DNA of 64,000 nt. It comes from Ectocarpus siliculosus. Taxonomy: Eukaryota > Sar > Phaeophyceae > Ectocarpales > Ectocarpaceae. Positions within the stretch are counted from its first letter, which is position 1, and each line of letters starts with the position of its first letter. A program made the translations under genes and the position numbers. Below the pieces are notes generated by a model. That model saw only the letters and a program-made list of their open reading frames with translations, searched no databases and was not told where the DNA came from. Positions 3,321-58,061 of this stretch are shown in pieces. The stretch is from NCBI GenBank assembly GCA_000310025.1, contig FN648466.1:63893-127892 (forward strand). The letters run 5' to 3'.

Positions 3321-3327
3321 ACGACTA

Positions 3328-3549: not shown

Positions 3550-3551
3550 TA

Positions 3552-3769
3552 CCGTGAGAGGATGAGAGCTAGCACACGCCCCCAAAGACCGATTTTCAAT
3601 TATCGATTGCTCCACAGCCAAGCTTGTGCCAATACCAACAACGGTGGTTTTGGAAACATCTCGTCGAGGAATTTCCGTAGACGAATCGGGCTCCGCACCC
3701 ACTTGGTTGTGGACCAATCGAACTTTGAAAGTCGCTCTAGGGGGGGTGTCATCTCTCCGCCTCTTACGG
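3552..3769. mobile_element. Miniature TIR element 2, abutting element 1
   Basis: The left end starts CCGTGAGAGGATGAGAG and the complement of the right end starts CCGTAAGAGGCGGAGAG. Arms continue with CCCCC and TTTCAA blocks and an ATCGATTGCTCCAC/TTCGATTGGTCCAC pair. It shares the TA at 3550-3551 with element 1. Its interior carries an AATTTCCGTAGACG segment that is similar in the element at 5938-6144. Confidence 0.65.
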
Positions 3770-9004: not shown

Positions 9005-12000
9005 CTGCACGATGCAGCGCACCGGAGCAGAGGGTTTCCGAAACGCAACCGGAACCAACGTCGTGGTGTGTTGATTGTGCCGTATAGCTTGTACACCTGT
9101 ATTTTCCTCCCGTTGCAACTTGCAACAAACTTTCCCGCACCGACAGATGGAGGCAGACGCTTGGCGAACACCGGCTCATGGGAGTAAATTGCACAAGTAA
9201 ATAATGTCCTTGGTCAGGACTGCTTCCAATCCTCTGCTTTCTGCCTCCAATTCTATGCTTGTCCGTTATTGTTCCCCGCCGCGAGGAAAGAATCAGGAGG
9301 GTGAAGGGGGGGGGAAGAGAAAGAAATGCTAGGGCGACGAAGATACATCGAGGAACACTGTGAGAGGGCGTGCGTTGTCCCGGAGCGCGGATTCTGCTCC
9401 ACAGTTGATCTCATGCCACCCAATATTCTGTAACATCTGCTTATGTGTATGAAATGAATCCAGCGAAGAGAAGGTTGTTTGGCACAGACGTCGGGCCCTC
9501 ACAACAAAATAGTGGGGGGAAGGGGTCCCGGAAAGTAATGTTTCGAAAGCACGGGGTCCCGCAGATTCGTTCCAAAAAACGGGGTTCAGCTGAGCTGTAT
9601 TTTCGGGGTTCCGCAACATACATAAAAAAAAAGAGGATCCGCAGAAATGTTCCATCTAATATTGCGGAAGGAAGGATCGAAACTCCCGCGGGACTATGAG
9701 ACCCCTTCTATGCCGGTCGTGTAGTAGCAGAAAGTTATCGAAAAAAAAGTGGGCCTTCTCTCTTTCATCTGTCGCTCGCTGGTCAGCTGCAAGCTGTCCC
9801 TCTTCTTCGAACCGATGCGAAAAGGATTTTGGAGTCGTTTCGTTTCTTAGCCCGACCAGAAAACAATGTTTCAGGATCATTACTTGCGAAACTCACCTGA
9901 AGCAAGGGCTTCAACGTGTTGAACAATGAGCCCGGGTTGTGTACTCGGAAGCCCTTGCCCTGTGGCCCGCAAGGAATTTCCGAGAAGTCGCGCTCGCACA
10001 GAAAGACGAGGACAAAGTCGCAGCTGCCACCCGATCTGCAGAGGTCTATCCACCGATCCCACGTCCTGCGCAGTTGTATGGCGCCATTAACGCTCTCCTC
10101 GGCTTGCGTTTCCTGGATGCTAGTGGTCTCGACAGGCTTGAGTAGCACCAGTCGTGGATACGGAAGCTCGACAGGGTCACCATATGATGGAAACGCAGCC
10201 CGGAACATCCGAACGGATTCACGCCTGGTATCTTCCAGGATCTTAGCCAATTGTGTGGCCAGGTATCGCTCGAAGTGCACTTGGAATTGGTCGGATTGGG
10301 TGATGTTAAGCTCCTCGAATATCGGCAAGCGGAGCCCCGGGTAACCGTGGATGTTGTCCTGGAGAAGACTCAATAGCTGTTCTCCAACCTCTCGCAGGAC
10401 GCCCTTAGCTTCCGCAGTCTTGCCCTTGACGCAAATAGCAATCGCAGGGAAGGTGCTCTGTCCAGGGATTATGTCCTTTTCAATCGTGGTCTCGCAAAGA
10501 AGCACATCGTGCTCGTTAGAGTCCTTTTTCCACTGAATGTGAGCCCCGTGCTGCCAGCATTTGCCTGAAGCCTCAAACCTGCTTGAGGTGAAGGCCAAAA
10601 AGCGCCCAATTATCCCTGTTGGGGCGTGGCTCCGCAGGAACCACGCTGTCTTTCCCACCACCACCTCGCCGAGCCCGATGCTTTCCTCCAGAATGTTATC
10701 GTTCCCATGCTCTGGTAACCTCGCCGGCACGATGTGACAATCCTCCGCGTTGCTGCACTCCCCGTGAGAGGGGTAAATGAACAAGTACTTGATCATGGTG
10801 TCCACCATGCTGTCGAAGGCGTCCTTGTCTAATTGAGCTCCTGCGTAATCGCCTTCGACTTCCAGCTTGCGATGGACCCACAGAAATCGAAGGTAATCCC
10901 GGTTCAGTCGACCCTGTCGAATAAAGCACCTGTCGAGGACGTGAGAGAGGGAGCCCTCATCGTGACCGTAATGGAAACAGTTTCGTGCTGATACTAAGCC
11001 GATGGAATCTGCACTGCAAGCCCGGCGTCAAGACAGTGTTACCACACGCCCCAACATTCGCATGGTGAACAGCATGAACATCTCCTAGCGGCCCAGGCAC
11101 ATTATGTCCATGGAACATGTTAGACGCGAATTCTCCACAGCTTGTGATGATTAACTCACCAATCATAATTGGTTCCGAGTATCTGGCACTGCAGCACAAG
11201 TAACAACGCGTCAATATGATGGCTGAGGCGTCCGCGGCTATGCCAAAACTCGACTCACGCGTGTGTTTCGCACAGGTTCTTGTACCCACTGAGAGTGTCA
11301 GGCCGGGTTCTGTCGTACTCGAGCAGCTCCTGCAATATCTTGTTTTGCTTTTTCTTGTCCACGAGGTTGTGATCCGTGACCCGCCTCACGAGCTCGATGA
11401 GCCACCGAGGATCCACGTGAATCATGTCACTTTGTGCGGGGGAAGACTCGTCTCGCAAAGACAAAATCACGCCTCCCTCCGCCTCTCGATGCTTCATCGC
11501 TTCCTTGAGGTTGGTCGCAGCGTCTTCGTCAGACAGAGGCTTGTTGCGCTCCTCTTTACCCTCCTCTTTGTGCTTCTCTTGGAAATATCGCTGGAACGCT
11601 CTCACTGCATCACCCCACAGCACGTACGGTGTCCCCTTCTCTTTGTGTAACGCCTCGACAGCGGCGATCGCGTCCACCCAAGCTGCCGGCAAGATTGTAG
11701 CAACAGCCGGAAAGGAGAAGGATATCTTCTCGGGTGCCACACCTATGATCCAGTCGCTTAGCCTGCCGATCCTGTTGTCCAGGCCAAGAGATGCACAAAA
11801 AACTCTTGGGTGGAGGATGAGAGGGTGTGTAGAACCTCTCTGAAAACTGTCGTCCTTCTCCGCACTTGCGTTCCCGCAGGAGAGCTTGAGCTCCTTCGCC
11901 TTGTCCTCCTGGTATTGACGAACAACTGCATGTGGGCGCGCGGTCATGCGAAGCATAAATTTGTAGTATTGCATGTACCACAGTCCAAAGCTTTTGGCAA

Positions 12001-15000
12001 GACTACCTGCATAAAAGGCCAGTATGGGGAAGGGTCTAGGACACTTTTTCACAACTCAAACAAGACAAGCTGCGCCACGAAAAACGGAAGACGGCAGGGA
12101 CTCTCGTTGAGAGACCACCCGCCCACCCTTCCAGTGCTATAGACGAACGCTAGATCTTTCGACAATTTCTGTCGAGGATAGAGAACGACTAGTCGGTGCT
12201 CACGAAACACACGATTGGTTATTCCTTTTCGCAACGGCATGGCTACAGCGACGCGACCCTCGCCAAAGGTGATGCCATCATTTACCCCACACTATTTGGA
12301 AAGAAGAACTGACCCGAAGCTCCAAATGAAGTACACATCGACGTGTATTCTTCATACTAAGATGGCACGACCGCCACGGCCGTTGGCGCACCCCTCCAGC
12401 ATGTGCGGCCTCCCCTTCCGTGCGTTCCCCAACCACCTCACCCCTCTCTACTCTCTGACACACGAAATTGGGGCAGCCCTGACCAGGGACAATCTTTTTG
12501 CATTTGAACTGACGAATTGACCATTTGCTTCGACTGACACGCGCACACTTTGTCAAGAGACAACAGTCTACCGAAAATCAGACGAACGGTAGAGATCACA
12601 ATCCAACACATTACCTTCTACGTGGGGGGGGGGGGGGGGTTATCTCAATGGTATACCGTAAACGTCGGAGTTTTCCCCCCAGAGTAAAGTTCCCCCCCCC
12701 CAAAAAAAAACCTTTCGGCCTGGAAGATTGGTTTCTTTGGTTTAGTCCCGGGGTAGATCGTTTTCGACCACATAGAAAAAAATCCCCCCGGGTATTTCAA
12801 TTTCCCCCCGGGGTACCAGTTTTCCTACGAGTTCCCCCCGGCGGGATGTATTTCCCTTATTTTCTGAGTCGATTTTGTTGCATCGCGGAGCACAAAAAGC
12901 ATGATATGGGACAGAAGGTTCATTTGCAGATCTCGTTGTAGTGTGAACGGAGCTGCCGGGTACTCTCTGGAAGGCGGGCCCTTCCTCTTCTTGGAATCAC
13001 TCGCGGGACGAGACAACCTCCCCCAGCTGCTGTCCTCCATGCAGTCTCTTTTCTCTTCGCCTTCGTTGCTCTTACGTTCCTCCTCCCTCTGCTTGTTGAA
13101 CGCTTGCTCGTAAACCTTATCCATCTCAGTTTCGCCAGTCTCTGTGTGTGTGGTGTGTGGACCATCAGTATTTTGCACAACCCCCCGGGGGGGGGCTTCC
13201 CCCCGGGGTAGCGTTGGAAAAAAAAACTATCCCCTCCCGGTACGTCAATTTCCCCCGGGGGGGTTGGTTTCAGAAAAAAAACGATCCCCTCCCCGGGGGG
13301 AAAACTCCGACGTGTACGGTAGTTGGAGTTTCCGGTTCTTTCGGCTGCGCCCCAACCCTTTTCAAAAATCATAGCATTTTTAAAAGGCGGGGGAAATTGC
13401 ACTCAGGATTCAGTATGAAACCTACCATCGCGATAATATAGTTGCAGCAGTTGATTGAGTGCCAGCTTATGCGCAGATTCAAGGGCATGTGACGAACTGC
13501 AATTGCAACGCTCACAGCGTTCGAAACGAGTTCTCCTTCATTGAGTTCGGTAAGCTACAAGCGTAGAAACAGCCTGCTGTAGAGGTCATATTCGTACTAA
13601 ACATAGAGTGCGTTTCCCCAGCCTTTTCAAAATCCAGCGAAATGTGAAAAGGGTTGCGGCCCAGCCTTAAATTTATCCCTTAATGTCACTCACGCGTTCG
13701 GAAGCGCTTCTCCGCCTTGTAGAGCTGCCTTTGGCCATTCTTGATCTCCTCAGCATACCGGGGACCTGAACTTCGGAGCGTACAGAAGCATGATCAGCAC
13801 CTGCGAGGTACAGAGACGGTACGGTCCCCGGACCTCCTTGTATGTGGCCCATGCATAACGTGGCCAATCTCGTTCCAGGCGAAAGGTTTGGACAGAATTC
13901 GAGTCGACCGAAAGTCAGCCTTGCTAGTGATCCCCACATCAAGGGGAACTGCAAGGGTCCAAAAATGAAAAATAAAAAGCATCACTCGACACGGATGTTT
14001 CGGCCGATCGTCCAAAATGGCGGAGCGCCAATTTATGTTTTGACCGTATACGGACCTGTCTTTGAGCACCTATGTGAGAGACGGGTGGTGCCTACAAACA
14101 TTTGGTGCCCGCACCGTGCATTCTCAATAAAGGTGTTGGTCGCAGATTCATTCCAAACACACACCTAAAAAAATGGTCACGACTAAGAAGCCCTGTTTCC
14201 TCTGCCTTTGATTTTGGGGGGGATGCACCCGATTTGAAATACACCTTCGCCGACCCGCTGCGTCGCAGCTGAAAATGGCCACGTCCCGTCCGATCATTAG
14301 CAGAGATTGCATACGATAGGAAGTGAGTGTTTTCACCCGCAGTGGCTTGCCCATCTCTCCAGACCCATGGTTGAGCCCATAACAACAATGGATGGGTTGC
14401 CTATCTTTCCAGGTCTATCTATCGTCCGCAGCCATGGGAGCCGAATTAGAAAGACCTTTTCGGTAACTCAAACCTAATTTTTTGCCCTCCGAAAAAGCAC
14501 CAACAACCCACAGCGAACGTTTTGTGCTCGGTTGATTCTCAGGCTTGCCGCTCACAAGCAGTTGTAGCTCAAGAAATTGCTACAACACTCGCCGCATGCC
14601 CTTGAAAGCAGCAGCACGAAGCTAAAAGCACGTTATCAGTACAACAAAAAACCTCTTTTGTATGGTTTCAAAATGCGGCGAAACGGCTGATTAACGGAGA
14701 TCGTCCGCACCGTTTGATGCACGTATCACTCACCCGGGATTCGGCCCTCCATTTCAGTTCGTAGGACTTGCACCAGGTCGTTAAGGTCTTCAGCTGATTA
14801 TTTCAAAATGGGAGAGCAATTTAGCTTTGGGAGCGAGCTACTTCGATCGCAGAAATTGAGGATTCACCGGATTTGACTGGACCTTCAATGAGGGTGCTTA
14901 CCGTCTATTGAACAACTAAAACAAACTCCATCCTAACTAGCTCGGAGGTCTACCCGAAGAAAGCTCCGGGGGAAAGAGTAAACACTCTGCGCAACGCTCA

Positions 15001-18000
15001 AAGTAGTGGCAGGATTTCAACACCAACTATGGGGCCGAGTGTGGCGACTCCCGCTCATCACGATCAACAGCCCGCTGTTGCCGCCAGAAATAACTGACTG
15101 CACGTGCCGTTTGGTGCAGTTGTCACTCACCCGGGAGTTGGTCCTGCAGGTAAATTCGCATCAGCTGCACTAGGTCGTCCAGGTCTTCAGCTGGTATTTA
15201 CAGCATGGGACAACATTTTTGTGGCAAGTGTGAGCTGCTTCGAACTCAGAACTCTAAGATAAAACGGATTTCAATGTTCACCCAGGAGGAAGAGCCGACT
15301 ATGCTGCTTTTCGTTCATCAAATCAGAAACCAACATTGGCACTAGACTCAAGGCGGTACGTAAGGCATCGAGGTTGCGCCAAGCATAGGGCCGAGTCTGT
15401 TCGTTACTGCTAAGCAGTCACGATCAACCGCCCGCTGTTTGATGCCTGATTAAACCAACTGCATGTCCGGATCATTTGAACCAGGTGTCACTCACCCGAG
15501 ACGACTTGGTCCTCCAGTGTAGTTCGCACCAGTTCGAGCAGGTGATCAGGCTCTTCATCGCCTGAGTATTCGGCAGGGAAGGGCATTTTCGTTGTGTAGG
15601 TGAGATGCTTCGAATGCGGAACTAGCCGACAAATCGGCCAAAGTTCACCCAGGAGGCTAAGATCCGATCATGCTGCATTTCGTTCACCAACCAAGACAAA
15701 AAACTCCATCTTACATAGTGCTGCACGTATTGACCGAACAATGAACCATCGGACGAAAGATCAGGCACTCACTTCAACGCGGTAAATGAGGCGCCGAGTC
15801 TGCCGTTTAATGCTAAGCTTTTTCAGAATTAAGTGCACGTCCGTAACATCTGATGCAAGTGTCACTCACCCGAGAGTTGCAGACGAGTTCGTACCAGCTG
15901 CTCGAGCTTGTTAATGTCTTCAGCTGGTATCAACGTGGGACAACATTTTCGTGACGACTGTGAGCACTTCGATTGTAGGCCTCGAGGATCAATCGAAGCC
16001 AAGAGGAAATTCACTCAGGAGGAAGATCCGACCATGCTGCCGTTAGTTCATTCAATCGGAAGCCAACTTTCTTCCCTACAACAGCCCTGAACAACGTACA
16101 GAAAAGAACTTTCGAATGACACAAGTGGTACTCGACTGCAGGTGGTGCACAGGGCACCGAGGTTGGGCCAAACACAGGCCGAGTCTGTTCGCTGCTGGCA
16201 AACATTTACGATCAACAGCCAGCTGTTTGGTGTCTTCTAAAACCAACTTGCATGTCCGTACGATTTGATCAAGGTGACACTCACCCGAGAATTGCCCCAC
16301 CAGTGTTTTTCGTTCCAGTTGGAGCAGCTTGTCAAGCTCTTCGTCACCTGAGCATGTATTTTCAACGCCGGAGGATATTTCGTTCTGTGGGTTAGATGCT
16401 TGGATTGTAAAACTCGAGCCAAAACGTCCGCAACTGGACCGAAACCAGACATCTTCCACTGCTGACTCGCCGCCATATACCCCAATCTCCTGAACTGCGG
16501 GCTTACAGCAGCAGCTGATGATGCGACTATCTCCTTTAAGCGGCCAGCAATTCAGGAAGTAAAAGTCCGTAGCGGCGAGCACAGCATTGACAAGGGTTTG
16601 CTGTCGCTTGAAAATGCGGATTTTCGAGCCACAGCCGCAGCCTTCGATATCTCCGCCCCAGCTGCAGATCTGAACGTGCCGACACACGCTTTCCCTCAAT
16701 ATGGTATCTGTTGATGATTGCTCTATTCAGGTCGGGACTCCTAGCGTGGAAATGTTGGATTCTGAAAATCGGTGTCATGTTTGATTCGACCTAACAATGT
16801 ATGGGCGAAAGGGGGGGGTGGATCACCACCTCTTGCACCAGAATGAACAGAAAAAAGGCACCGTGTTTACACCACACACCAACCACACACGGTGCCGAGT
16901 CTATTCACTACTGCTGAACGATCGATACCCAGCTATTGCTGCCTTCAAAAATCAACGTCACGTCCGCACCGTTTGATGTTGGTGTCACTCACCCAGGATC
17001 TGGCCCTCCAGTTGAGTTCGTAGCAGTTGCAGCAGGTTGTCTAGATCTTCAGCTGGGTACAGTTCAATATGAGAGAACAATTTTATGCTGCGGGTAAGCT
17101 GATTCGGTCCCAGAAGTTGAGGGTACACCGGATTTGACTCCAACATCGCCGAGGAGGCAAAATTCAACATGGTTGGTGCGTTTCCCTCATCATAAAGAAA
17201 CCAAACTCTGAAAAAAATGGCACTCGGATCAACGCGGAAAGTAGGGCACCATGGTAATGCCAAACATTGGGGCATAATCTATCCAGCACCATTAGGCAAT
17301 AGTCTAACGATCAACAGCCGGCCGTTTCCGCCAGAAATAACCAACTGCATGCACGAACCTTTTGGTGCAGCTGTCACTTACCCGAAAGTTGGCCCTGCAG
17401 TCGAGTTCGTACCAGTCGCACCAGGTCGTCAAGGTCTTCAGCTGGTATTTTCAACACGTGACAACATTTCGCTGCGTAAGTAAGCTGCTTCAATCGCGTG
17501 TAACTTGGGAATACACCAGAGTTGACTGGATTTTCACTGATGAGGCAAAGAAAAATACTCGCACGTGGTGAGTGTTTTGTCGTTTTGAGTTCAAACAACC
17601 AACCAACCCCATCCTACGTAGCCCCACGTCCCTCTGACCGAAACAAACACATTCTAGCAAAATAGTCGGCAGTCCGTTTTACGCGAAACGGAAGGCACCA
17701 GGGTTATACACCAACTGCGTCTCCGAGTTTGGCAACTACCGCTAAGCATTAGCAATCAAGAGTTAAGCTGTACCAGACAGACACTGCCAACTTTATGCAG
17801 GGAACGTTTGGTGCAGTTGTCACTCACCCCGGCGTTGGTCCTCCAGTTTAGTTCGTACAAATTGCACCATGTAGTGAAGGCCTTCAACTGATATTTCAAC
17901 ATGGGAGAACATTTCGGTGCGTGAGTGAGCTCCAGAGCTGCTTCCATTGTAGAACTCGAGGACAAACCGGACACGAGAAGAAGTTCACCCAGTAGGAAAA

Positions 18001-21000
18001 GACCCGATCATGCTGCTGTCGGTCAACAAACAAGAAATCAATCGCATCCCTCGTAGCCCTTAATGCCTGACTGAAGCAAAACATTTCGGAATCAAGAGTA
18101 GGCACGCGGGTACACACCCAGCATGGAGTCGAGTCTGTACAACACTGGAGAACATTTACGATCAACAACGGGCTGTCGTTGCCTGAAACAACCAACTTCT
18201 TCATTGATGGACTTCTCACTCACCCGATAGTTGGCACACCAGTTTGGAGTGTACCAGTTGCAGCAGGCCGTCGGCAAGGTCTGTACCTGGGTATTTCAAA
18301 ATGTCAGCATAGTTTCGTTGTGTACGTGGCCTTATTCGACCCTAGAACTTGGGGAATATACCGGATTCAAGAGGAAAAACACCGAGGAGGAAAGATTCCA
18401 ACATGGTCAGTGCTTTTCGTTCATAAAAAAATCCTCCCCCATCCTACGAAGCCCTGCACGCCTGACAGTCATAAATCAGCTCCGCGACAATAGTACGCAC
18501 TCAATTCGGCGTCCGGGAATGTGTCAGGAGTACGCCAAAATTACGGCACCAAGTCTGTGCACGACTGTCAAGCATGAACGACCAACGGACCAACAGATCA
18601 ACAGCCGGTAGTTCGCTGCCTGATCAAGTCAACTGCACGTCCATACGGTCTGATGCTGGTGTCACTCACCCGAGAGTTGGCCCTCCAAATTGGTTCGTAC
18701 CAGTTGCACGAGGTCGCCAAGACCTTCAGCTGAGTATTTCAAAAATGGGACAACAGTTTCCTTGTGTCAGTGAGATGCTTCGATTGCACAACTCAAGTAT
18801 AATCGGATTCAAGAGGAATTTTAACCGGGAGGCTAGATTCCAACATGGTGAGCGTTCTTCGTTCATCAAACAAATATACCACTCCCATCCTACGATGCTC
18901 CGTACGCCTCACCCAAACAAAACATTTCGGAAAAAACAGTATACGCACTCAGTTCGGCGGTAGGCAATGCATCAGGGATACGCCAAACACGGCGCCAAGT
19001 CTGTCCGCCACGGTCAAGCATCAACGATCAACGAATCAACGATCAACGGATCAACAGCCGGCTGTTCGCTGCACGATCAAGTCAACTGCACGTCTATACG
19101 ACATGATGCTGGTGTCACTCACCCGACAATTGGCCCTCCAGCTTGGTTCGTACCAGTTGCACGAGGTCGCCAAGGCCCTCAGCTGAGTATGTCAATGCGG
19201 TACAGCAGTTTCGTTGTGTCAAGTGAGCGCTTCTATTGTAGAACTACACGACAAACCAGACTTCACAGGAATATCACATAAGCGGCAGACGTTCCATCAT
19301 GGTGAGTGGTTTTCGTTCATCAAACAAGTTACCCGCCTCCATCGTGCGAAGCACCGTACTCATGGCCGACATGCACGTTTGAGGGTTAGATCAATGATTT
19401 GGTGTAAGGCGGCAAGTCAGGCACCAGGGTTGTGCCAAACGTTTAGCTGTCCACCTCTGCTACGAGCTACAACGATCAAGAGCGCCGGTTGCTGCTGCCC
19501 GGTAAAACCAACAGTTAGTCCGTTCGATCTGATGCAAATATCGCTTACCCGAGAGGTGGCCCTCCAGTCGAGCTCGTAACCATTGAAGAACGTCGTCAAG
19601 GTCATCAGCTGCGTAATTCAACACGGGAGGATAGTCGTTGTGAGGGCAACCGGCTTCGATTGTAGAACTCGAGGACCAAAACCAGATTCAAGAGGAAGTA
19701 AGAAGTTCACCCAAGAAGGCATGATCCGATCACGCTGCTTTCCATTAATCAAACAAGAGATCAATCGCACCCACGGAGCCCAGCGCCTGACCGACATATA
19801 CGTAGGCGAAAGAAGGCGCAGCCAGGCGGTGATCAAGGCACGAGGGGCCACCCAAATATGCAGGAGAGTCTGTCCAACACTGGCAAACATTTACGACCAA
19901 CAGCGGGCTGTTGTTATGTGATACAACCAACTTCATTGATGCAATTGTCACTCACCCGCCAGTTGGCCCACCAGTTTGGAGTGTACCAGTTCCACCAGGC
20001 CGCCGGCAAGGTCTACATCTGGATATTTCACCATGTCAGAAGAGTTCCGTTGTGTGAGTGACCGTATTTGACTGCAGAATTTGGGATATATTCCGGATTC
20101 AAGAGGAAAAAACACCAAGGAGGCAAGATTCCAACATGGGGGAGAATTTTTCGTTTGTAAAAGAATCCACACCCATCCTAAGAAGACCCCCTCACGCCTG
20201 ACCGTGACAAATCGCCTCGGAAAAAAAAAACGCAATCAGTCCGGCGTCGCCGAATGCATCAGGGCTACGCCAAATACGGCGCCAAGTTTGTCCACGACTG
20301 TTAAGCATGAACGATAACGGACGAACGGATCAACAGCCGGTTCTTTGCTGCCTGATCAACTCAACTGCACGTCCATACGGTCTGGTGCTGGTGTCACTCA
20401 CCCGAGAGGTGGCCCTCCAAATTTTTTCGTACTTGTTGCGCGAGGTTGCCAATGCCCTCAGCTGAGTATGTTAACACGGGACAACCGTTTCGTTGTGTCA
20501 GTGAGATGCTTTAATTACACAACTCGAGAATAAATCGGATTCAAGAGGAATTTTGCACAGCAGGCATGGATTCCAACATGGTGAGTGTTCTTCGTTCTTC
20601 AAACAAATATACCACACCCATCTCAAGATGTTTCGTACGCCTCACCCAAACAAAACATTTCGGAAAATGCAGTGTACGCACTCAGTTTGGCGGTAGGCAA
20701 TCCATCAGGGATACGCCGAACACAGGGCTGACTCTGTCCGCCACGGTCAAGCATCAACGATCAACGGATCAACAGCCGGTTGTTCGTTGTACGATCAACT
20801 GCACATCAATACGATCTGATGCTGGTGTCACTCACCCGACAGTTGGCCCTCCAGCTCGGTTTGTACCAGTTGCACGATGTCGCCAAGGCCCTCACCTGAG
20901 TATTTCAATATGCGACAACAGTTTCGTTGTGTCAAGTGAGCGTCCTATTGTAGAACGAAACGATAAAAAACCAGAATCCACTGGAATATCACAAAAGCGG

Positions 21001-24000
21001 CAGACGTTCCATCATGGTGAGTGGTTTTCGTTCATCAAACAAATTACCCGCCTCCATCGTATGAAGCCCCGTACGCATGGCCGGCATGCACGTTTGACGA
21101 TTAGATAAGGGATTTGGTGTAAGGCGGCAAGTCAGGCACCAGGGTTGTGCCAAACGTAGAGCTGTCCACCTCTGTTAAGCACTACAACGATCAAGAGCGC
21201 CGCCTGCCGCTGCCCGGTAAAACCAACAGTTAGCCCGTTCGATCTGATGCAAATATCGCTTACCCGAGAGGTGGCCCTCCAGTCGAGCTCGCAACCATCG
21301 AAGCACGTCGTCAAGGTCATCAACTGCGTAATTCAACACGGGAGGATATTCGTTGTGAGGGTAACCTGCTTCGATTGTAGAACTCGAGGACCAAAATCAG
21401 ACTCAAGAGGAAGTTCACCCAAGAAGGCATGATCCGATCATGCTGCTTTCCATCCAACAAACAAGATATCAATCGCATCCGACGGAGCATAGGGCCTGAC
21501 CGACATATTATAGATACGGCGAAAGAAGGCACAGCCAGGTGGTGAGCAAGGTGCCAGGGGCCACCCAAATATGCAGGCGAGTCTGTCCAACACTGGCGAA
21601 CATTTACGATCATCAGCGGGCTGTTGTTGCCTCACGCAAACGAACTGCATGTCAGAATTGTTTGATGCAATTGTCGCTCACCCGATAGTTGGCCGACCAG
21701 TTTGGAGTGTACCAGTTCCACCAGGACGTCGGCAAGGTCTCCGGCTGATTTTTTCAGCGTGAGAGAAAAAATCGTTGAGTAAGTGGGCTTCTTCGACTCC
21801 ATAACTTCGGAATCTACCGGATTTGACAACAAACTCACTGAAGCCATAGATTCCAGCATGGTGAGTGCTTTTCGTTCATCAAACAAATAAACCACACCCA
21901 TCCTCCGATGCTCCGTAGGCCTGACTGACAAAAACATGTCGACAAAAAGACAACTCACTAAGCTCGACGGTGCCAGGTTCTGTCTGCGAGTGTCAAGCAT
22001 CAACGGACCAACGGATCAACAGCAGGTAGTTCGCTGCCTGATCAAGTCAACTGCTCGTCCATACGGTCTGATGCTGGTGTCACTCACCCGAGAGTTGGCC
22101 CTCCAAACATGTCCGTACTCGTTGCACGAGGTCGCCAAGGCCTGCAGCTGAGTATTTCAATATGGTACAGCAGTTTCGTTGTGTCTTGTGAGATGCTTTG
22201 ACTGAACAACTCGAGCATAAACCAGATTACAGGAGGAAATTCGTACGGGAGGCATACATTCCAACATGGGTGAGTGTTTTTCGTCCATCAAACAAATATA
22301 CCGTTCCCATCCTACGGTGCTCCCTCCCGGTGTTTGTCATCGGGGTTGGGTTGTCCAAGCTTGGCAACGACATATAGCAACGACATCACGACATTGTAAA
22401 ACAAGCCGATCGGTTCGTGGGCTCGACAAAGGATACCCACTTTCTTCCCGTTGTATTGTTTGCGGCAACATAATGGTGGTCGAGTAGATTATGTTGTGCG
22501 AGGTCGACAACGCTCACTCGCGCAAAGGGGATGATCGCCCCACGTGGTGTTAAAATGGTGAAGCACCCTCGAGGCAGTTACACAGTGCTAACAACCGTCT
22601 CTGGGAGTGTAAGCACCAGAAAATATATTAAGTTATTCGCACATGCCATCCGTACGCAAGGAAGCAAGCACAAGATGCCGAACGCCCAATACAGGATGCA
22701 GCGCACCCTCCATGGTGTTTGCCGAATACCTCACGGTCCTTCGCGCTTGGTAATGTGACAGCCTCGTCCTGTGAGAACCCGGCCTGCTAAGTCCCGGCTT
22801 TGCAGGGATGCGAGGTAAATTGTCAAACGACTACGGCCTGCACGACTATGAGTACACCCCCCCCATCCTACGATGCTCCGTACGCCTCACCCAAACAAAA
22901 CATTTCGGAAAAAACATTATACGCACTCAGTTCGGCGGTAGGCAATGCATCAGGGATACGCCAAACAGGGTCCCGAGTCTGCTCGCCACGGTCAAGCATC
23001 AACGATCAACGGATCAAGAGCTGGCTGTTCGCTGCACGATCAAGTCACATGCATGTCCATACGATCTGACGGTGGTGTCACTCACCCGACAGTTGGCCCT
23101 CCAGCTCGGTTCGTACCAGTTGCACGACGTCGCCAAGGCCCTCACCTGAGTATGTCAATGCGGTACAGCAGTTTCGTTGAGTCAAGTGAGCGCTCCTATT
23201 ATTGTAGAACGAAAACGACAAAACAGATTTCACTGGAATATCACAGAAGCGGCAGGCGTTCCATCATGGTGAGTGGTTTTCGTTCATCAAACAAATTACC
23301 CGCCTCCATCGTACGGAGCCCCGTACTCATGGCCGACATGTACGTTTGACGATTGGATAAATGATTCGGTGTAAGGCGGCAAGTCAGGCACCAAGGTTGT
23401 GCCAAACGTAGAGCTGTCCACCACTGCTAAGCACTACAACGATCAAGAGCGCCGGCTGCTGCTGCCGGTAAAACCAACAGTTAACCATTCGATCTGATGC
23501 AAATATCGCTTACCCGAGAGGTGGCCCTCCAGTCGAGCTCGTAACCATTGCAGCGCGTTGTCAAGGTCATCAGCTGCGTATGTATTTCAACACGGGAGGA
23601 TATTCGTTGTGAGGGTAACCTGCTTCGATTGTAGAACTCGAAGACCAAAACCAGATTCAAGAGGAAGTTCACCCAAGAAGGCATGATCCGATCACGCTGC
23701 TTTCCATTCATCAAACAAGAGATCAATCGCATCCGACGGAGCCCAGCGCCTGACCGACATATTATAGATACGGCGAAAGAAGGCACAGTCAGGTGGCGAG
23801 CAGGGTACTAGGGAGCACCCAAATATGCAGGCGAGTCTGTCCAACACTGGCGAACATTTACAATCAACAGCGGACTGTCATTGTCTGACACAACCAACTC
23901 CATTGATGCAATTGTCACTCACCCGATAGTTGGAACTCCATTTTGGAGTGTACCAGTTCCTCCAGACCGTCGGCACGGTCTGCATCTGGATATTTCAACA

Positions 24001-27000
24001 TGTCAGAATAGTTTTGGGTGTGTGAGTGGCCATATTTGGCTGCAGAACTTGGGAAATACCAGATTGCAGAGGAAAAACACCGAGGAGGCAAAATTCCAAT
24101 ATTGTCAAGTGCTTTTCGTTTATCGAGTAAACCACACCCATCCTACGAAGACCCGCATGCCTGACCGTGACAAATCAGCGAGTCAGGCGAATAATACGCA
24201 CTCAGTCCGGCGTCACCGAATGCATCAGGGCCAACCCAAACACGGCGCCAAGTTTCTTCACGACTGTCAAGCATGAACGATAAACGGACCAACGGATCAA
24301 CAGCCGGTAGTCCGCTGCCTGATCAACTCAACTGCACGTCCATACGGTCCGATGCTGGTGTCACTCACCCGAGAGGTGTCCCTCCAACTTGGTTCGTACC
24401 AGTAGCACGAGGTTGCCAATGCCCTCAGCTGAATATTTTGTCACGGGACAACCGTTTCGTTGTGTCAGTGAGATGCCTTGATTGCATAACTCGAGTATGA
24501 CTCGTATTTCAAGAGACATTTTGCACAGGAGGCGTAGATTCCAACATGGTGAGTGTTTTTCGTTCATCAAACAAATACACCACTCCCATCTCAAGATGCC
24601 CCGTACGCCTCACCCAAACAAAACATTTCGGAAAAAACAGTATACGCACTCAAAGTTCGGCGGTAGGCAATCCATCAGGGATACGCCGAACACAGGGCTG
24701 ACTCTGTCCGCCATGGTCAAGCATCAACGATCAACAGATCAACAGCCGGTTGTTCGCTGCACCATCAAGTCAACTGCACGTCTATACGATCTGATGCTGG
24801 TGTCACTCACGCGACAGTCGACCCTCCAGCTCGGTTCGTACCAGTTGCACGAGGTCGCCAAGGCCCTCAGCTGAGTATTTCAGTATGGGATAACAGTTTC
24901 GTTGTGTCAAGTGAGCGCTCATATTATTGTAGAACGAAAAAGACAAAACAGATTTCACTGGAATATCACAGAAGCGGCAGACGTTCCATCATGGTGAGTG
25001 GTTTTCGTTCATCAAACAAATTACCCGCCTCCATCGTGCGAAGCCCCGTACGCACGGCCGACATGTACGTTTGAGGACTAGATAAATGATTCGGTGTAAG
25101 GCGGCAAGCCAGGCACCAAGGTTGTGCCAAACGTAGAGCTGTCCACCACTGCTACGAGCTACAACGATCAAGAGCGCCGGCTGTTGCTGCCCGGTAAAAC
25201 CAACAGTTAGTCCGTTCGGTCTGATGCAAATATCGCTTACCCGAGAGGTGGCCCTCCAGTCGAGCTCGTAACCATTGAAGAACGTCGTCAAGGTCATCAG
25301 CTGCGTAATTCAACACGGGAGGATAGTCGTTGTGAGGGTAACCGGCTTCGATTGTAGAACTCGAGGACCAAAACCAGATTCAAGAGGAAGTTCACCCAAG
25401 AAGGCATGATCCGATCACGCTGCTTTCCGTTCAACAAACAAGATATCAATCGCATCCCACGGAGCCAAGCGCCTGACCGACATATACATATGGCGAAAGA
25501 AGGCACAGCGAAGTGGTGAGCAAGGTACCAGGGGCCACCCGAATATGCAGGCGAGTCTGTCCAACACTGGCGAACATTTACAACCAACAGCGGTCTGCTA
25601 GGACCTTAGGCAAGGCAACGAACTGCATGTCAGAATAGTTTGATGCAATTGTCACTCACCCGATAGTTGGATCACCAGTTTGGAGCGTACCAGTTCCACG
25701 AGGCTGTCGGCACGGTCTTCAGCTGAGTATTTCAACATGGGACAATATTTCGTTCTGTAAATTTACTTCTTCGACTGTAGAACTTGGAAATAGAAGTACC
25801 GGATTTAACTTGTGCCAACTTAATGAAGGCCAACATTTTAGCATGGTGGGTGCTTTTCGATCCTCAAAAAGATATACTACACCCATCCTACGATGCTCGG
25901 TACGCCCGGCCGAAACAAAACATTTCGGCAAAAGTAGTACGCACTCAGTTGGGCGTAACGGAATGCACCAGGGTTGCGCCAAATACGGCGCCAAGTTTGT
26001 CCACAACTCAAGCATCAACGATCAACAGATCAACAGCCCGTTGTTCACCGCCTGATCAAGTCAACTGCATGTCCATACGGTCTGATATGCTGGTGTCACT
26101 CACCCGAGAGGTGGCCCTCCAAATTGGTTCGTACCAGTTGCACGAGGTCGCGAAGGCATTCAGCTGAGTATTTCAATATGGGACAATCGTTTCGTTGTGT
26201 CAGTGAGATGCCTTGATTACATAACTCGAGCATTGATTGGATTCCAAGACGAAATTCGCTGAGGAGGCGTAGATTCTAACATGGTGAGTGCCTTTCGTTC
26301 ACAAAGCAAATATACCACTCCAATCCTACGATGCTCCGTACGCCTCACCCAAACAAAATATTTCGGAAAAAAACAGTATACGCACTCAGTTCGGCGGTAG
26401 GCAATCCATCAGGGATACGCCAAACAGGGCGCTGACTCTGTCCGCCACGGTCAAGCATCAACGATCAACGGATCAACAGCCGACTATTCGCTGCACCATC
26501 AAGTCAACTGCACGTCCGTACGGTCTGACGCTGGTGTCACTCACCCGACAGTTGGCCCTCCAGCTCGGTTCGTACCAGTTGCAAGACGTCGCCAAGGCCC
26601 TCACCTGAGTATTTCAATATGGGATGACAGCTTCGTTGTGTCAAGTGAGCGCTCATATTATTGTAGAACGAAAAGACAAAACATAATCCACTGGAATATG
26701 ACAGAAGCGGCAGACGCTCCAACGTGGTGAGTGGTTTTCGTTCATCAAACAAATTACCCGCCTCCATCGTACGGAGCCCCGTACTCATGGCCGACATGTA
26801 CGTTTGACAATTGGATAAATGATTCGGTGTAAGGCGGCAAGTCAGGCACCAAGGTTGTGCCAAACGTAGAACTGTCCACTACTGCTAAGCACTACAACGA
26901 TCAAGAGCGCCGGCTGTTGCTGCCCGGTAAAACCAACAGTTAGTCCGTTCGATCTGATGCACATATCGCTTACCCGAGAGGTGGCCCTCCAGTCGAGCTC

Positions 27001-30000
27001 GCAACCATTGCAGCACGTCGCCAAGGTCATCAGCTGCGTATTTCGTGTATCAACACAGGAGGATAGTCGTTGTGAGGGTAACCTGCTTCGACTGTAGAAC
27101 TCGAGGACCAAAACCAGATTCAAGAGGAAGTTCACCCAAGAAGGCATGATCCGATCACGCTGCTTTCTGTTCAACAAACAAGATATCAATCGCATCCCAC
27201 GGAGCCCAGCGCCTGCCCGCAATACACATATGGCGAAAGAAGGCACAGTCAGGTCGGGAGTAAGGTACCAGGGAACACCCAAATATGCAGGCGAGTCTGT
27301 CCAACATTGGCGAACATTTACGATCAACAGCGGACTGTCGTTGTCTGAAACGACCAACTCCATCGATGGACTCGTCACTCACCCGGTAGTTGGATCACCA
27401 TTTTAGAGGCAAACAGTTCCATCAGGCCGTCGGCAAGGCCTCCAGCTGAGTATTTCAAAATGTCAGAAGAGTTTCGTTGTGTAAGTGGCCGTATTCGACT
27501 GCAGAACGTGGATATACCGGATTCAAGAGGAAAAACACCGAGTAGGCAAAATTCCAACATGGCGAGTGCTCTTCGATCAGTAAACACACCCATCCTACGA
27601 TGCTCGGTACGCCTGACCGAAACGAAACATTTCGGCAAAAAAGTACGCAATCAGCTTGGCGTTTAGGGAATTCATCAGGGTTACGCCAAATACGGCGCCA
27701 AGTTTGTCCGCGACGGTCAAGCATCAACGAACAATGGATCAACAGATCAACACCCGGTTGTTCTCTGCCTGATCAACTCAACTGCACGTCCATACGGTCC
27801 GATGCTGGTGTCACTCACCCGAGAGTTGGCCCTCCAAATTGATTCGAACTCGTACAGCGAGGTTCTCAAGGCCTTCAACTGAGTATTTCAAAAATGGGAC
27901 AATCGTTTCGTTGTGTCAGTGAGATGCCTTCATTGCATAACTCGAGCATTGATTGGATTCCAAGACGAAATTCACACAGGAGGCATGGATTCCATCATGG
28001 TGAGTGTTTTCGTTCATCAAACAAATACACCACTCCCATCTCAAGATGCTCCGTACGCCTCACCCAAACAAAACATTTCGGAAAAAACATTATACGCACT
28101 CAGTTCGGCGGTAGGCAATCCATCAGGGATACGCCAAACACGGCCCCAAGTCTATCCGCCACGGTCAAGCATCAACGATCAACGGATCAACAGCCGGCTG
28201 TTCGCTGCACGATCAAGTCACATGCATGTCCATACGACCTGACGGTGGTGTCACTCACGCGACAGATGGCCCTCCAGCTCGGTTCGTACCAGTTGCACGA
28301 CATCGCCAAGGCCTTCAGCTGAGTATTTCAACATGGGATAACAGTTTCGTTGTGTCAAGTGAGCACTCCTATTGTAGAACGAAAAAGACAAAACATAATC
28401 CACTGGAATATCACAAAAGCGGCAGACGTTCCATCATGGTGAGTGGTTTTAGTTCATCAAACAAATTACCCGCCTCCATCGTACGGAGCCCCGTACTCAT
28501 GGCCGACATGTACGTTTGACGATTGGATAAATGATTCGGTGTAAGGCGGCAAGCCAGGCACCAGGGTTGTGCCAAACATAGAGCTGTCCACTACTGCTAA
28601 GCACTACAACGATCAAGAGCGCCGGCTGTTGCTGCCCGGTAAAACCAACAGTTGGTCCGTTCGATCTGATGCAAATATCGCTTACCCGAGAGGTGGCCCT
28701 CCAGCTGAGCTCGTAACCATTGCAGCACGTCGTCAAGGTCATCAGCTGCGTAATTCAACACGGGAGGATAGTCGTTGTGAGGGTAACCTGCTTCGATTGT
28801 AGAACTCGATGACCAAAACCAGATTCAAGAGGAAGTTCACCCAAGAAGGCATGATCCGATCACGCTGCTTTCCGTTCAACAAACAAGATATCAATCGCAT
28901 CCCACGGAGCCCAGCGCCTGACCGACATATTATAGATACGGCGAAAGAAGGCACAGTCAGGTGGCGAGCAAGGTACTAGGGAGCACCCCAATATGCAGGC
29001 GAGTCTGTCCAACATTGGCGAACATTTACGATCAACAGCGGTCTGCTGGGACCTTCTGCAAGGAACCTCATGTCCGAATAGTTTGCTGCAATTGTCACTC
29101 ACCCGATAGTTGGCCTACCATGTTGGAGTGTACCAGTTCCACCAGGCCGTAGGCAAGGCCTCCAGCTGAGTATTTCAGCATGAGAACATAATTTTGCTGT
29201 GTAAATGAGCTTCTTCGACTGTGGAACTTGGGAAATACCGGATTTGACAACAAACTCACTGAAGGCATCCATTCCAACATGGTTACTTTTCATTTATCAA
29301 ACAAATAAACAACTCCCATTGTAAGATGCTCCGTACGTCTGGCCGTGACAAAACATTTCGGCAAAAACAGTACGCACTCACTTCGGTTTCAGGGAATGCA
29401 TCAGGGTTACGCCAAATGCGGCACCGAGTCTGTCTACGACGGTCAAGCATCAACGATCAACAGATAAACAACTCGACAACCGGTTGTTCGCTGCATGATC
29501 AAGTCAACTGAACGTCCATATACCGTCTGATGCTGGTGTCACTCACCCGAAAGTTGGCGCTCCAACTGGACTCGTACTCGTTGCACGAGGTTGCCAAGGT
29601 CTTCAGCTGAGTATTTCAATATGAGACAACATTTCGTTGTGTCAGTGAGATGCTTTGATTGCAGAACTTGAGCATTGATCAGATTCCAAGAGGAAATTCG
29701 CACAGGAGGCATACACCGTAGACGACACAATATAACACACCCACATAAGAAACTTTACCCCCCACAGAATGAGACACCCCGGAGATAATTTTGATTTTGG
29801 ACGTTTCTGACGAATCATCGATTTAGCCCCCGGGCTACATAAGATATTACACCCCTTGAGTTCGCGCCTCATACATTCACGGGGCCCCTCCGTCTATCAC
29901 CGGGGTGATATAGGATCTCAGGATCTGCCGCTTGGGCATCGCACGCACACACAACATCTGCGTGCGGGGAAACACCCCGAGACCTCCAACAACATGAACG

Positions 30001-33000
30001 TGCAGGGAGGCAGAATGTCGCCGCAAGTACCTCCGCTTCTTCCACAACTGTTTCGACTGCAGCAGTACAAGCACCACAGATCGCGTCGTTTTTTCAGCGC
30101 CGGTGAGCACATTTCTTCTACGCAAGCGGCTCCTGCCACGGCTCGTCCTCCTGATGCTGCTGATCTAACAGCAGCAGTAGCTGGCACAGCAACAAGCGCC
30201 AACATGACAGCCACCGCATCGCCTCACCAGCAGCAGCCACACCCCTTCAAGTGTGCGGCAGCAGCAGCGGTTCAACTCTACAACCAGTGTCATCACACCC
30301 CCATTTTATCACACCCCCACAATATCACACCCCCACAATATCACACCCCCAAAGGCACCCTGTGGGTGTTGGGACGTGCTACAACACCCCCTGGTTTATC
30401 GCACACCCTTAGGGGCCCCTGCGAGCTGCACTTTATCACCCGGGCTACATAATATACCCACCCCCCACAGGATACCACACCCGGTGATAACATTTTTAAA
30501 GCCCAAAATATAATCACCGCCGTGTGTTATCTTGTGTCGTCTACGGTATTCCAACCTGGTGAGTGTTTTTCGTTCATCGTACAAATAAACCCACCCCATA
30601 CGCGTAAAGGGGATAATCGCACCACGTTGTGTTAATATGGTAAAGCACCCTCGAGGCAGTTACACAATGCGTATAACCGTCTCTGGAAGTGAAAGCCCCA
30701 GAAAATAAATTAAGTCATACGCAGCTGTCATCCGTACGCAAGGAAGTAAGCACAAGATGCCGAACACCCTTAGCAGGATGCAGCTAACCCTTCATGCGGC
30801 TCGCCGAATACCTCACGGTGCTTCGCGCTTGGTGATGTGAGAGCCTGGTCCGGTGAGAACCCGGCGTGCTCCGTCTCGGCTTTGTAGGGATGCGAGGTCA
30901 ATGGTCTAACGACTACGTCATGCACGACTATGAGTACACCCCCCCATCCTACGATGCCCCGAACGATGTCCCGTACGCCCGACCGAAACAAAATATTTCG
31001 GCAAAATTGTACGCACTCAGCTTGGCGGTAGGGGAGGTATCAGGGTTACGCCAAATACGGTACCCTGGTGTCACTCACCCGAGAGTTGGCCCTGCAGATT
31101 GGTTCGTACCAGTTGCACGAGGTCGCCTAGACCTTCAGCTGTGTGTGTTAATAAGGGACAACAGTTTCGTTGTGTCAAGTGACCTGCTTCGATTGCAGAA
31201 CCCGGGGATAATCGGACTCAAGATGCAATTCACTTCGGGGGCATACATTCCAACACAGCAATGCGTGCGTTTCGTCCATCAAGCGAATAAACCATCCCTG
31301 TCCATCGCGCTTTGGTCTATTAGTTCGTATTCCCGTAAACCTTCTGGCGGCCAGGTCATGGGTCCGAATCTCGGCGTGAGCGAGCTTTTTTCTTGCAACG
31401 TGACATTTTTCTCTCAGTCTCGTGTTTGGCAGGGGAGTATCGCTACGTCGTGAGTACACATTGAGGGAAGATAGCCTGCTGAACTTTTCTCGCGTTAAAA
31501 ATCGAAGCCAAGCACCGCAGGAGGGTGGGTGGGGGCCTCAAGGGAGGGCCTCGGGGAGAAGAACTTTTCTGTGTGACCACGGATCAGAGCTCTGGCGAGG
31601 CGTCCCTGCGGCCGATGGTTAAATCGGCAAAGAAAAACTATCAACTGGCTCGAAACTGCCTGGCCGAAGTATACATTTAACGATTAGATAAGGGATTGGG
31701 CGCAAGGCGGATAACAAGGCACCAGGGTTGTGCCAAACATGGCGCCGAGTGTGTCCACCACTGCTGCTAAGCACTGCAACGATCAGCAGAGACGTCCATA
31801 TCGCATGAGGCAAATATCACTTACCCGAGAGGCGACCCTCCAGTTGATTTCGAGTCTGTACCCATTGAAGCACATCGCAGAGGTCATCAGCTGCGAAATT
31901 CGAAATGGGAGAGAGTTTCGTTGTGAGGGTGGCCTGCTTCATTGTAGAATTCGACAGCAGACTTTGTAAAGTGGACTTAATCAAGGAGAAAGAGTTTCCA
32001 ACAAGGCGCAATGTCTTCACTGATTGGCTAACCCAACCCCATCCTTCGTAACGATTCCTTATAGCCGGAACAAAAAATATTGGAAAAAGATAAGGCACTC
32101 TGTCAAATGCGGACAGTTAATGTACCAGGGTTAAGCCAAACACTTGGGCAAAGTTTGTCCCCTACACCTAAGCGTTGACCACCAACACCCAACTGATGCT
32201 GCCTTAAAAATCAACTGCACGTCCAAATTTACTACAAGTCTTCAGGTACAGGTGTACTCACCCGAGAGTTGACCCTCCAAACGAGTTTGTGCCAGCTGCA
32301 CCAGGTCTTCGAATTTTGATTTTTCATCTGCGTATTTCAATATGGGAGAACAATTTCGTTGTGAGGGTCACATGCTGCGAAAAAAAACTCGAGAATGAAT
32401 CGAATTTAAACGAAAAAAATTTACTCAGGACGCAAAGAACCGATCATCCGATCATGCTGCTTCCCGTTCGACAAGTAAGACACCAATCCGTACTTCGCAG
32501 CCCTGAACGCCTGGCCGAAACGAACGTTCAAAGTGAAAGAGAGGGCGCTCGGAATAAGGCGGAAAGTCAGGCACCAACGTCAAAACACTATTGGCGCCCG
32601 ATCCCTCCACTACAGCTGAACAACAACGATCAACAGCCGGTTGTTTTTGCGTGATAAAAACCAACTGCACGTCCGTATCATTTGATGTAGGTATCACTCA
32701 CCCCAGTCATTGTCCTCCGGCGGTGGATTTTGTACCGAGTGCGCCAGCAACTCAAGGTCATCAGCTGGTATTTCAACATGGGACAGCATTTTCGTGGCGA
32801 TGAGCTGCTTCGATTGTAGAGCTCGACGACAAAACGGATTCAACTGGAAACTCATCGATGATTCCAACATGGCGTTTTCGTTCGTGAACCAAGACACAAA
32901 TTGCATCCAACGTTGTTCTGCACGCTTCACCGAAATGTGAACCATCGGACGAAAGATCAGGCACTCGCTTCAAGATTTAAGGCGAGTCCCTCTGCTACAG

Positions 33001-36000
33001 TTTTTAGCAATCACGATCAACATTGTTGATTGTTGACTTTTCGATGTCTGATCAAACAAACTGCGTGTCCGTACCATTTGATGCAGGTGTCACTCACCCG
33101 AATGTTGGCCCACCAGTGTGGTTTGTACCAGTCGCATCAGGTCATCAAGCCCTTCATCAGCTGAGCATTTCAACACCGGAGGACATTTTCGTGCAGGGCG
33201 AGTGGGCTGCTTTGACTGCAAAGAACTCGACGACAAAGCGGATTTAGCTGGAAAATCAACGATGAGGCAGACACCCGAACATGGTGTTCCCTCGTTCATC
33301 CAGTATTAACCGACCCCATCCTGCGGACAGAGGAACCTAAGGAAAGAACCAAGGATAAGGAGGGTCTAGAAGTGTACGGAATGTTGAACGGGGAATAGGG
33401 TTCAAGGAGTACCGACATGGACCAATGGATGCAGGGACAAAGCGAAGGTCAAATTCAGGACCGGGGACATTGACCTTCGAGAACGCAGACGGAGATTTCG
33501 GAAGGTACAGTAGACAATGAAGACGACAAGTTCATATGCGATTGCAACGCCGAGTGAGAAGACCGGGTTCATGTACAAGAAGGAGAGGGAAGTGTACATG
33601 ACTGAGCTAGGAAAAATAGAAGGAAGATAGAGGGAGAGGGAGATGTTTGAGGCTAGCGAGGAGAAGACAATAGTCGCACTGGGGCATAGGAAGTGTGTTG
33701 AAAAGGCGGGAAGTGATATCGATAGGATAGATAGACTAGGGAAGACAATTTTGAGCCACCTTTGACAAAATAGGAAGGAATGATTGGCCATCGGTGATCG
33801 GTCCTGTGGGAACAATGCTCCCTTCTCTCGAGGACGCGTGGTCAATGGTCTAACTCCTAAGGAATGCAAAACACAAGAGTACACTCCTCCCATCGTACGG
33901 ACGGTAACCCTGACGTCGCCTGACCAAATTGCGGTAAGTCAGGCACCATGAAAACGCCAAACATGGGGCCGAGCACGCCCGCCACCGCAGAGAAGGAAGA
34001 ACAAACGGCCGGCTGCTGTCTGCTGAAAAACTCAGCTGCGACTTCGAACCGTCTAAACCAGCTGTGACTCACCCCAGACGTGGTCTTCCAGTTGAGTCCG
34101 TAGCAGTTCCACCAGGTTCCCCAGGTCATCGGCTGCGTATATCAACATGAAGGAGTTCAAACCGGATTCAATTGGAACTCGTCGAGAGGGCAGCGATCCG
34201 ATCATGCTTTTCGTTCATCACATTGATGAAAACTATCCCATCCTGTTCGCCCTAAATGCCTGATCGAAACCAAAACCTTTCGAAGGAAAGAGTAGGCACT
34301 CGAAATATGGCGGCAAGTGAGGCATCATGGTTGCGCTGAACATGCGGCCGAGTCTTTACATTTTTTCATGTGAAGCTAACGATCACACAACAGCTGGCTA
34401 CTGATGCCTGATGAAACCAATTGCACGTTCGCACCGTTTGATGCAGGTGTCACTCACCGGACAATCGGGGCTCCACTTGAGTTCGAACCAGCTGCAACAG
34501 GTTGCCGAGGTGTTTATCAGCTGGGCATTTCAACACATGGGGAAAGCATTTCCGTTGTGTGAGTGAGATTCTTCGGTTGTAGAACTTGACGACACAAGAC
34601 GGGATGAAATGGGATTCAACGGAGGAGGTAGGGATCCGAACGTGGTGAGTTCGTGCATGAAACAAGCAAACGACCCCATCCTTTGCGTAGCCCTGTACGC
34701 CTGACCGAAATCAAACGTGCTGCAAAGCAGGCATATGAAATATGGCGGCAAGCAAGGCACCCGGGTTGTACCCATTAGAGGACCGGCTGCGCACCACTGC
34801 TACAGCAAGCAATATTCAATTATCAACAGCCGGTTGTTGGTGCGTGACAAAATCAGCTGCACGCCCGTACCATGTTATGCGCAATTCACATACCCGAGAG
34901 TTGGCCTCCGAGTTTGGCTCGTTCCTGTCGAAGCAAACCGGCAAGAATCTTGAGAAGGGTGTTCAACACGTCAATCCGGTTTTCTCGATCTTCATCACCT
35001 GCGTATATTCAACATGGAAAAATGTTTCGGTCTTCTTCGTTGTAGGAGTGAGCTCCTCGATTGTAACGCTCGACATAGACCGGATCGCACTGGATGAGCG
35101 TGTTGGGCATTTCTTCTACCGGGTTATCAGGCCTTGCAAGAACACAAGCATCTCTTTCATTGTAGTCTTTATACAGGCAGCCTGGGCATTCTCTTGGGCA
35201 ACTTCCACCAAATTGAAACCATAAACAAGCCAGTTGTCCCCACCCCCGCCCTGGCGCCTCTGGGATTCCGAAGAAACTCCGCGCGCAGAGCTCGTCAAAA
35301 TTTCCGAGGTTCGAAGGGACACCGCACACCGAACGGTGATAATTCCTGTGATCTACGTAGCTGTCTCCAAGAACCCTCAAATACAAATGGTTCTACGTTG
35401 CTGATGCCTTGTAGGCGTTACGGTCTGTCGATCACCGATCGAACTCACCCGCGGATTCGCTGGAAGGAGGTGGCCGAGGAAAAAACTTGTCCCCATGCGT
35501 GCCCACGAGAGCGACAACCGCGCCAGGGACGCGTTCGTGTAGAATAACGAGCCACCGGTAAATGGCTCCGCGAGGGTCTGGGATCCCGGCCGACTTCTCG
35601 TCCCTTCCGAGCTCGAAGAGGTCCACCACCAAGAGGAACAAGGCACCTTCGGTCAGAAAGATTTGGTGGGAAGCGTGGTAGTCTGATTGCCCTGAAAAGT
35701 CCCACAAGCTCACTGCCAGAGGCAGGTTTTTATTTGGTTTCCATTCGGAGAGCTCGACGCCAATTGTACGCTTGTCGGCTGGATCGCCGCCGGTGAAATG
35801 GCGCACGATGGTAGTCTTGCCGGCTTCCGCAAGTCCCACCAATACCATCTTGAGCTTGCTCGATGTCCCTTCACCAAAGCGAGCGATGCCATCCCACCAT
35901 CTCCCAGCACTCACGAGACCCCGTGCTAGAAACGCTCGTGGCGGCCGTACCCAAGGGTTGCCGTTCACGCTCACACCCACTTTGCGATTGTCGTCTTGAA

Positions 36001-58021: not shown

Positions 58022-58061
58022 CCGAGGTAGGCCCCCCCGCTACGCGGGAGAGCCCGCACCC

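Follow-up and report, generated by a model that had tools for sequence, protein, structure and literature searches.

What can a long run of very short exons do inside a signalling GTPase gene, and where in the protein would its product lie? The question is raised by a leucine-rich repeat (LRR)-ROCO gene of the brown alga Ectocarpus siliculosus, located on the minus strand of a 64,000-nucleotide stretch of contig FN648466.1 (assembly GCA_000310025.1, positions 63,893 to 127,892), hereafter the window, whose coordinates are used throughout. An original prediction made from the sequence had placed 42 mini-exons between the Roc and COR domains of this gene and had taken them for a dedicated, expandable linker or recognition domain, possibly a receptor-diversifying device. 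We found that the array is real and frame-constrained and that it most likely lies within the Roc G domain, between motifs G4 and G5, a position supported by alignment with paralogues. We consider the chances somewhat better than even that these are cassette exons that keep the frame and are for the most part spliced together in tandem, which would form an expandable insert in the G domain.

A tandem array of 42 symmetric mini-exons

A search with a profile of the repeat unit (nhmmer) returned 42 matches at E < 1e-6 on the minus strand, from 34998 to 14734, exactly the count and coordinates first predicted. One further partial match (E = 0.007) sits in the flank of unit 1. The array and its landmarks are as follows.

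14734..34998, minus strand: 42 tandem units with one phase-1 symmetric mini-exon each, defined by nhmmer, splice sites, lengths and frame
34894..34998, minus strand: unit 1, with the longest exon, 105 nucleotides (nt), and the donor GTATGT
18224..29606, minus strand: units r09-r34, a four-unit higher-order repeat with types A-D, seen as identity at lag 4
14734..14793, minus strand: unit 42, the final array exon, 60 nt

A CAG acceptor and a GT donor flank the exon in 42/42 units, the donors being GTGAGT (32), GTAAGC (6), GTAAGT (2), GTGAGC (1) and GTATGT (1). Among alternative AGs, the CAG giving an exon length divisible by three was picked as the boundary. The exons so defined measure 60 nt (n = 26), 63 nt (n = 11), 66 nt (n = 3), 54 nt (n = 1) and 105 nt (n = 1); all 42 are multiples of three and phase-1 symmetric, with a total of 2610 nt or 870 codons. 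Summed over the exons, the phase-1 frame (two bases into the exon) holds no stop, compared with 11 and 65 stops in the other two frames. The splice sites, divisible lengths and lack of stops of the original prediction are thus present in every exon, as is its total of 870 codons in the array, and the equal phases, lengths divisible by three and lack of stops expected of an in-frame tandem exon array were found in 42/42 units. Since the units share their phases and each has a length divisible by three, the frame would survive the insertion of any number of exons. The predicted in-frame link from Roc to COR through the array was also reproduced: Roc, the 42 exons and the COR exon give 1316 codons without a stop. 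The direct Roc-COR join is open, as are joins that include a candidate 66-nt exon (13141) described below; since all these joins are open, any subset of array exons would keep the frame.

The longest array intron (1472 bases, 29607-31078, minus strand) contains 16-base repeats at 30292-30351 and other insert-like sequence, and four other array introns span 645-938 bases.

Frame constraint against intron controls

Aligned across all units, the exon window is open in every copy (42/42) and shows no frameshift. As a control we used 448 overlapping intron window-frame combinations of exon size, each with an open consensus in the same alignment. The best of these was open in 25/42 copies, the mean was 9.3, and every one was frame-shifted in at least 11 copies. 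Within the exon window, the second sense frame is open in 33/42 units and the three antisense frames are interrupted by stops in 7, 17 and 12 of the 42, which leaves phase 1 as the sole clean frame.

The units at the edges of the array are more diverged, whereas the centre is made of blocks of four: in r09-r34, identity is 0.84 at lag 4 versus 0.60-0.64 at lags 1-3. These blocks appear to be the more recent expansion. None of the 26 phase-1 exons within block types A-D is broken, whereas broken copies average 42% over 1368 intron window-frame combinations from the four types (63%, 15%, 35% and 55% for A-D), so frame keeping went on after the expansion. The share of intron combinations with no broken copy was 0.064, 0.195, 0.247 and 0.034 for types A-D. 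For the young block copies, the data demonstrate that indels and stops are lacking but not that one frame was kept in preference to another.

The array probably lies within Roc, between G4 and G5

The exons that flank the array, together with those that may follow it, are listed here.

35449..36039, minus strand: Roc exon (Pfam Roc) with GLAEAGKT, DFSGQ and THGD, which we take to be the G1, G3 and G4 motifs; phase-1 end before GTGAGTTC, start set by phase
13076..13141, minus strand: possible extra 66-nt phase-1 exon between the array and the COR exon, open and in frame, uncertain
11259..12006, minus strand: exon with a G5-like segment (VFCASLGL) and a COR-A-like part, 38% identical to an exon of the paralogue on contig C483
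9786..11027, minus strand: open frame of the C-terminal ROCO region, exon ends approximate, 33% identical to C483

The open frame of the Roc exon matches Pfam Roc at E 8.5e-15 (55.5 bits, cut-off 27). The exon ends 13 codons past G4 in phase 1, and 23.4 kb separate its donor from the COR acceptor. The closest Roc paralogue found, on C483, has the same exon order, with identities of 54% in Roc, 38% in COR and 33% in the C-terminal part. Where the array lies in the window, it has a single 449-bp phase-1 intron, and its Roc-COR join is open. When the COR exons were aligned with C483 and contig C11, a G5-position segment was seen ahead of the COR-A-like motif in both, VFCASLGL in the window and VFKVSLAP in C483, with the first residues of the window exon scattered in the alignment. 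The placement of G5 leans, in addition, on what we take to be the arrangement in LRRK2. The Roc of the paralogue and a joint profile matched LRRK2 and bacterial Roco structures, and these matches reach just past G4, plus a weak COR-A stretch. The COR-A assignment of exon 11259..12006 has a Pfam E-value of 0.097, under the cut-off, with the C483 exon standing in the matching position. In Teng 2024 (PMC11378527), COR was detected by profile in 18/111 brown-algal ROCO genes. The candidate exon at 13076..13141 is overlapped by a 160-residue open frame without a Pfam match, Pfam being the sole homologue search made for it.

The G5-like segment in the downstream "COR" exon and the position of the C483 intron argue that the array is within Roc rather than between Roc and COR, most likely interrupting the G domain after G4 and before G5. 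The site given in the original prediction is to be corrected accordingly.

Sequence conservation and character of the repeat

At hydrophobic positions, the ratio of nonsynonymous to synonymous differences (pN/pS) is 0.77, compared with 1.08 at the remaining positions (37 units of 20-21 codons), and the substitutions at hydrophobic positions are mainly L/V/I/M exchanges. Exons are modestly more conserved than introns, with identities of 0.68 versus 0.61 over all units and 0.64 versus 0.57 in the 15 edge units.

Two possible sources of the mini-exon were compared, each with 36/42 units, and neither gave a convincing match. Derivation from an LRR exon gave a profile score of 9.53 against 10 LRR exons (shuffle 95th percentile 9.42, maximum 11.95), with an alignment limited to the last 4 columns. 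Duplication of a Roc alpha-4 exon was compared with five paralogue segments after G4 and scored 6.14 (shuffle mean 5.74). Searches for RNAs encoded in the introns gave two Rfam matches at E up to 1 in positions 12000-36200, both far under the gathering score, and no tRNA.

The array was found at a single locus of the assembly

A 580-base unit query against the 189-Mb assembly returned 43 matches, every one in this array, in a search that may miss weak matches. The original prediction had proposed looking for 60/63-nt exons at other brown-algal ROCO loci; we did so for six paralogues of the same assembly. None of the six loci has a unit-profile match, and a mini-exon scan of their G4-to-COR intervals (178-2009 bp, with approximate ends set by eye or by tblastn matches) found 0 candidates. 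In the 23.4-kb interval of the window the scan returned 47 candidates, 41 of them array exons, unit 1 being over its length limit; elsewhere in the window, the background density of CAG-open-GT candidates is 0.29-0.5 per kb. Nor did the unit profile match any of eight more divergent Roc-like loci, whose self-matches downstream of G4 are at most 38 bases in the 3.4-4.8 kb examined; two of the eight have longer self-matches upstream of G4. The array is therefore present at 1/15 loci, eight of them covered for only those 3.4-4.8 kb after G4. This count leaves out weaker matches, for example on C9, C12, C33 and C43. Among 20 loci with a Roc match, the ROCO queries found only one (L027) by tblastn, and the other 19 were dropped.

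At another locus, L009 (5,000 bases of contig C368 in minus-strand orientation), tandem repeats occupy 2140-4089 near the best Roc-profile match of the genome; the ROCO queries did not match L009 by tblastn.

The available text of Teng 2024 (PMC11378527) describes no exon array inside Roc, and none was among the matches listed in a literature search of limited coverage, by titles and abstract openings.

A proposed expandable insert in a G domain and the alternatives

These observations suggest a model for the origin of the array. A phase-1-flanked exon may have originated in, or moved into, the phase-1 intron by which the closest paralogue divides the G4-bearing end of Roc from the G5/COR part, and this founding exon would then have multiplied through tandem duplication. 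Most likely a single mRNA would carry many or all of the exons, and some could be skipped as cassettes. Up to 870 residues would thereby be placed in the G domain between G4 and G5 as hydrophobic-patterned repeats of 20-21 residues, which might fold as helices and act in recognition or as a spacer. The length of the array may shift through unequal exchange of four-unit blocks and perhaps also through splicing. Joint inclusion is favoured by the absence of broken exons, because a frameshift in an always-joined exon would cost the COR half. Single-choice use would let a broken copy persist at almost no cost, so the unbroken state fits joint inclusion better; this is an argument and not a measurement.

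Several results weigh against this model. Pooled pN/pS is 0.83 (41 units, r01 omitted), compared with 0.87 and 1.22 in the shifted frames. Amino-acid constraint is thus weak and pN/pS fails to single out the frame, so that the insert may be merely tolerated. Between block copies, exon identity (0.86) is barely over intron identity (0.84), types B, C and D have a second exon frame that is likewise unbroken, and on average just 15% of type B intron copies are broken. The helical moment of the repeats is not significant (P = 0.11). Family searches with one five-repeat string and exons r01-r19 found no Pfam match of the repeat over cut-off (best HflK_N, 19.8 of 22 bits, and Aip3p_Bud6_N, 19 of 27); the best PDB match of the repeat had E 0.51, and exons r01-r19 had none at E ≤ 1. 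Pyrimidine tracts are weaker at the array acceptors (0.56, n = 42) than at other acceptors (0.71, n = 11), which could mean frequent exon skipping. Finally, an insert of such size within the G domain may disturb GTP binding. Of the original interpretation, the coding and expandable character is retained, given the frame kept in 42/42 exons, the four-unit blocks and the empty paralogue intervals. Its dedicated recognition domain is not borne out by the pN/pS values, pooled or at hydrophobic positions, or by the helical moment.

It is unlikely, though worth considering, that the exons are included and in frame while the repeat has no specific function, its length drifting like that of a satellite under frame constraint only. 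The closeness of the pooled pN/pS to that of one shifted frame would fit such a tolerated expansion, as would the satellite-like pattern of diverged edges around a centre in blocks of four and the lack of such exons in the six scanned paralogue intervals; the lower pN/pS at hydrophobic positions, with its largely L/V/I/M exchanges, and the excess of exon over intron identity in the 15 edge units speak against it. More doubtful is a Dscam-like use, in which each transcript would take up a single exon, or a few, of the 42 and the stretch that follows G4 would exist in about 42 versions. Similar-sized exons, splice sites kept in 42/42 and weaker pyrimidine tracts are what this use would predict, and alternative splicing of ROCO LRR exons has been reported in Ectocarpus (PMC11378527). 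A 12-base site right after the Roc donor (35436) can also pair with an element of the unit intron. However, in an aligned-column test against control segments this pairing had P = 0.24 and the downstream intron P = 0.74, so that docking or selector complementarity of the Dscam type was not detected, and a duplex scan of 12 of the 36 introns of up to 420 bases gave differences resembling those in three control introns. Moreover, 0/42 broken exons exceeds the need of single-choice use, and joint inclusion requires lengths divisible by three throughout, which single choice does not. With no docking or selector signal and weak pN/pS, the receptor-diversifying device of the original prediction is unsupported.

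Exons that are chance features or relics of an intronic tandem repeat absent from the mature mRNA seem improbable. The background of CAG-open-GT candidates elsewhere in the window would suit this reading, but intron windows reach at most 25/42 open copies where the exons reach 42/42, and no exon is broken after the block expansion. That Roc and COR belong to two genes, with the array as the tail or head of one, is very improbable: the 23.4 kb between Roc donor and COR acceptor would suit it, but C483 holds both colinear across an intron of the same phase.

If the in-frame insert is transcribed, it would represent a new way of building or tuning a G-domain protein, and an insert of this size within a GTPase is unexpected. 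The four-unit blocks look like exon-array growth in progress. A bolder version, which we consider rather unlikely, is that array exons are combined in varying numbers per transcript, yielding a very large isoform repertoire; in this immune-type receptor, a variable helical arm would then be coupled directly to the nucleotide switch.

Comparison with known exon arrays

Titin PEVK, nebulin and elastin are built from many symmetric in-frame repeat exons, with super-repeats and with lengths tuned through skipping or duplication. Those are structural proteins, whereas the array here would interrupt a signalling GTPase. Like the arthropod Dscam clusters, the array comprises tens of homologous exons placed in tandem within a single gene; those of Dscam are mutually exclusive and have selector sequences, whereas here there is no pairing signal and all exons are symmetric multiples of three.

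Within brown algae, LRR-ROCO genes carry 72-nt exons of one LRR each (Teng 2024, PMC11378527; Zambounis 2012 via PMC11378527). They are candidate immune receptors whose variation is thought to proceed via the LRR exons (PMC11378527), while in the present gene a variable array would sit in the GTPase itself. The array resembles the 72-nt exons (PMC11378527) in belonging to a ROCO gene, here with four LRR exons upstream, in having one repeat per exon and in sharing their phase (two bases in, one base out). It differs in its probable G4-G5 position inside Roc, its mainly 60/63-nt exons, the four-unit blocks at its centre and a 20-21-residue repeat that matches the LRR in the last four columns only. 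Insertions within Roc occur in some brown-algal genes, for example Cok_S_s158_12713.t1, and Roc lengths range from 77 to 467 residues (PMC11378527). The extra sequence in Cok_S_s158_12713.t1 likewise lies within Roc; its exon make-up, or an array, is not described in the available text.

Other features of the gene and the window

A strict motif search identified at least four N-terminal LRRs, each in a minus-strand exon of 72 nt upstream of Roc.

36353..36424, minus strand: 72-nt single-LRR exon
36619..36690, minus strand: 72-nt single-LRR exon with a weak donor, gtcggt
41413..41484, minus strand: 72-nt single-LRR exon
43587..43658, minus strand: 72-nt single-LRR exon, probably of the same gene

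Within this LRR part of the gene, a 299-residue open frame (37398-38294, minus strand) has no Pfam match at E ≤ 1. Farther away, a 408-residue open frame on the minus strand (56816-58039) bears what we take to be a resemblance to a mobile-element tyrosine recombinase, but Pfam gave no match to it at E 0.01. Positions 59333-60655 hold tandem repeats whose periods range from 57 to 250 bases and which have a CAGCACGGGTGCTTCCACTCATTGGCGCGTCCC-like core in common.

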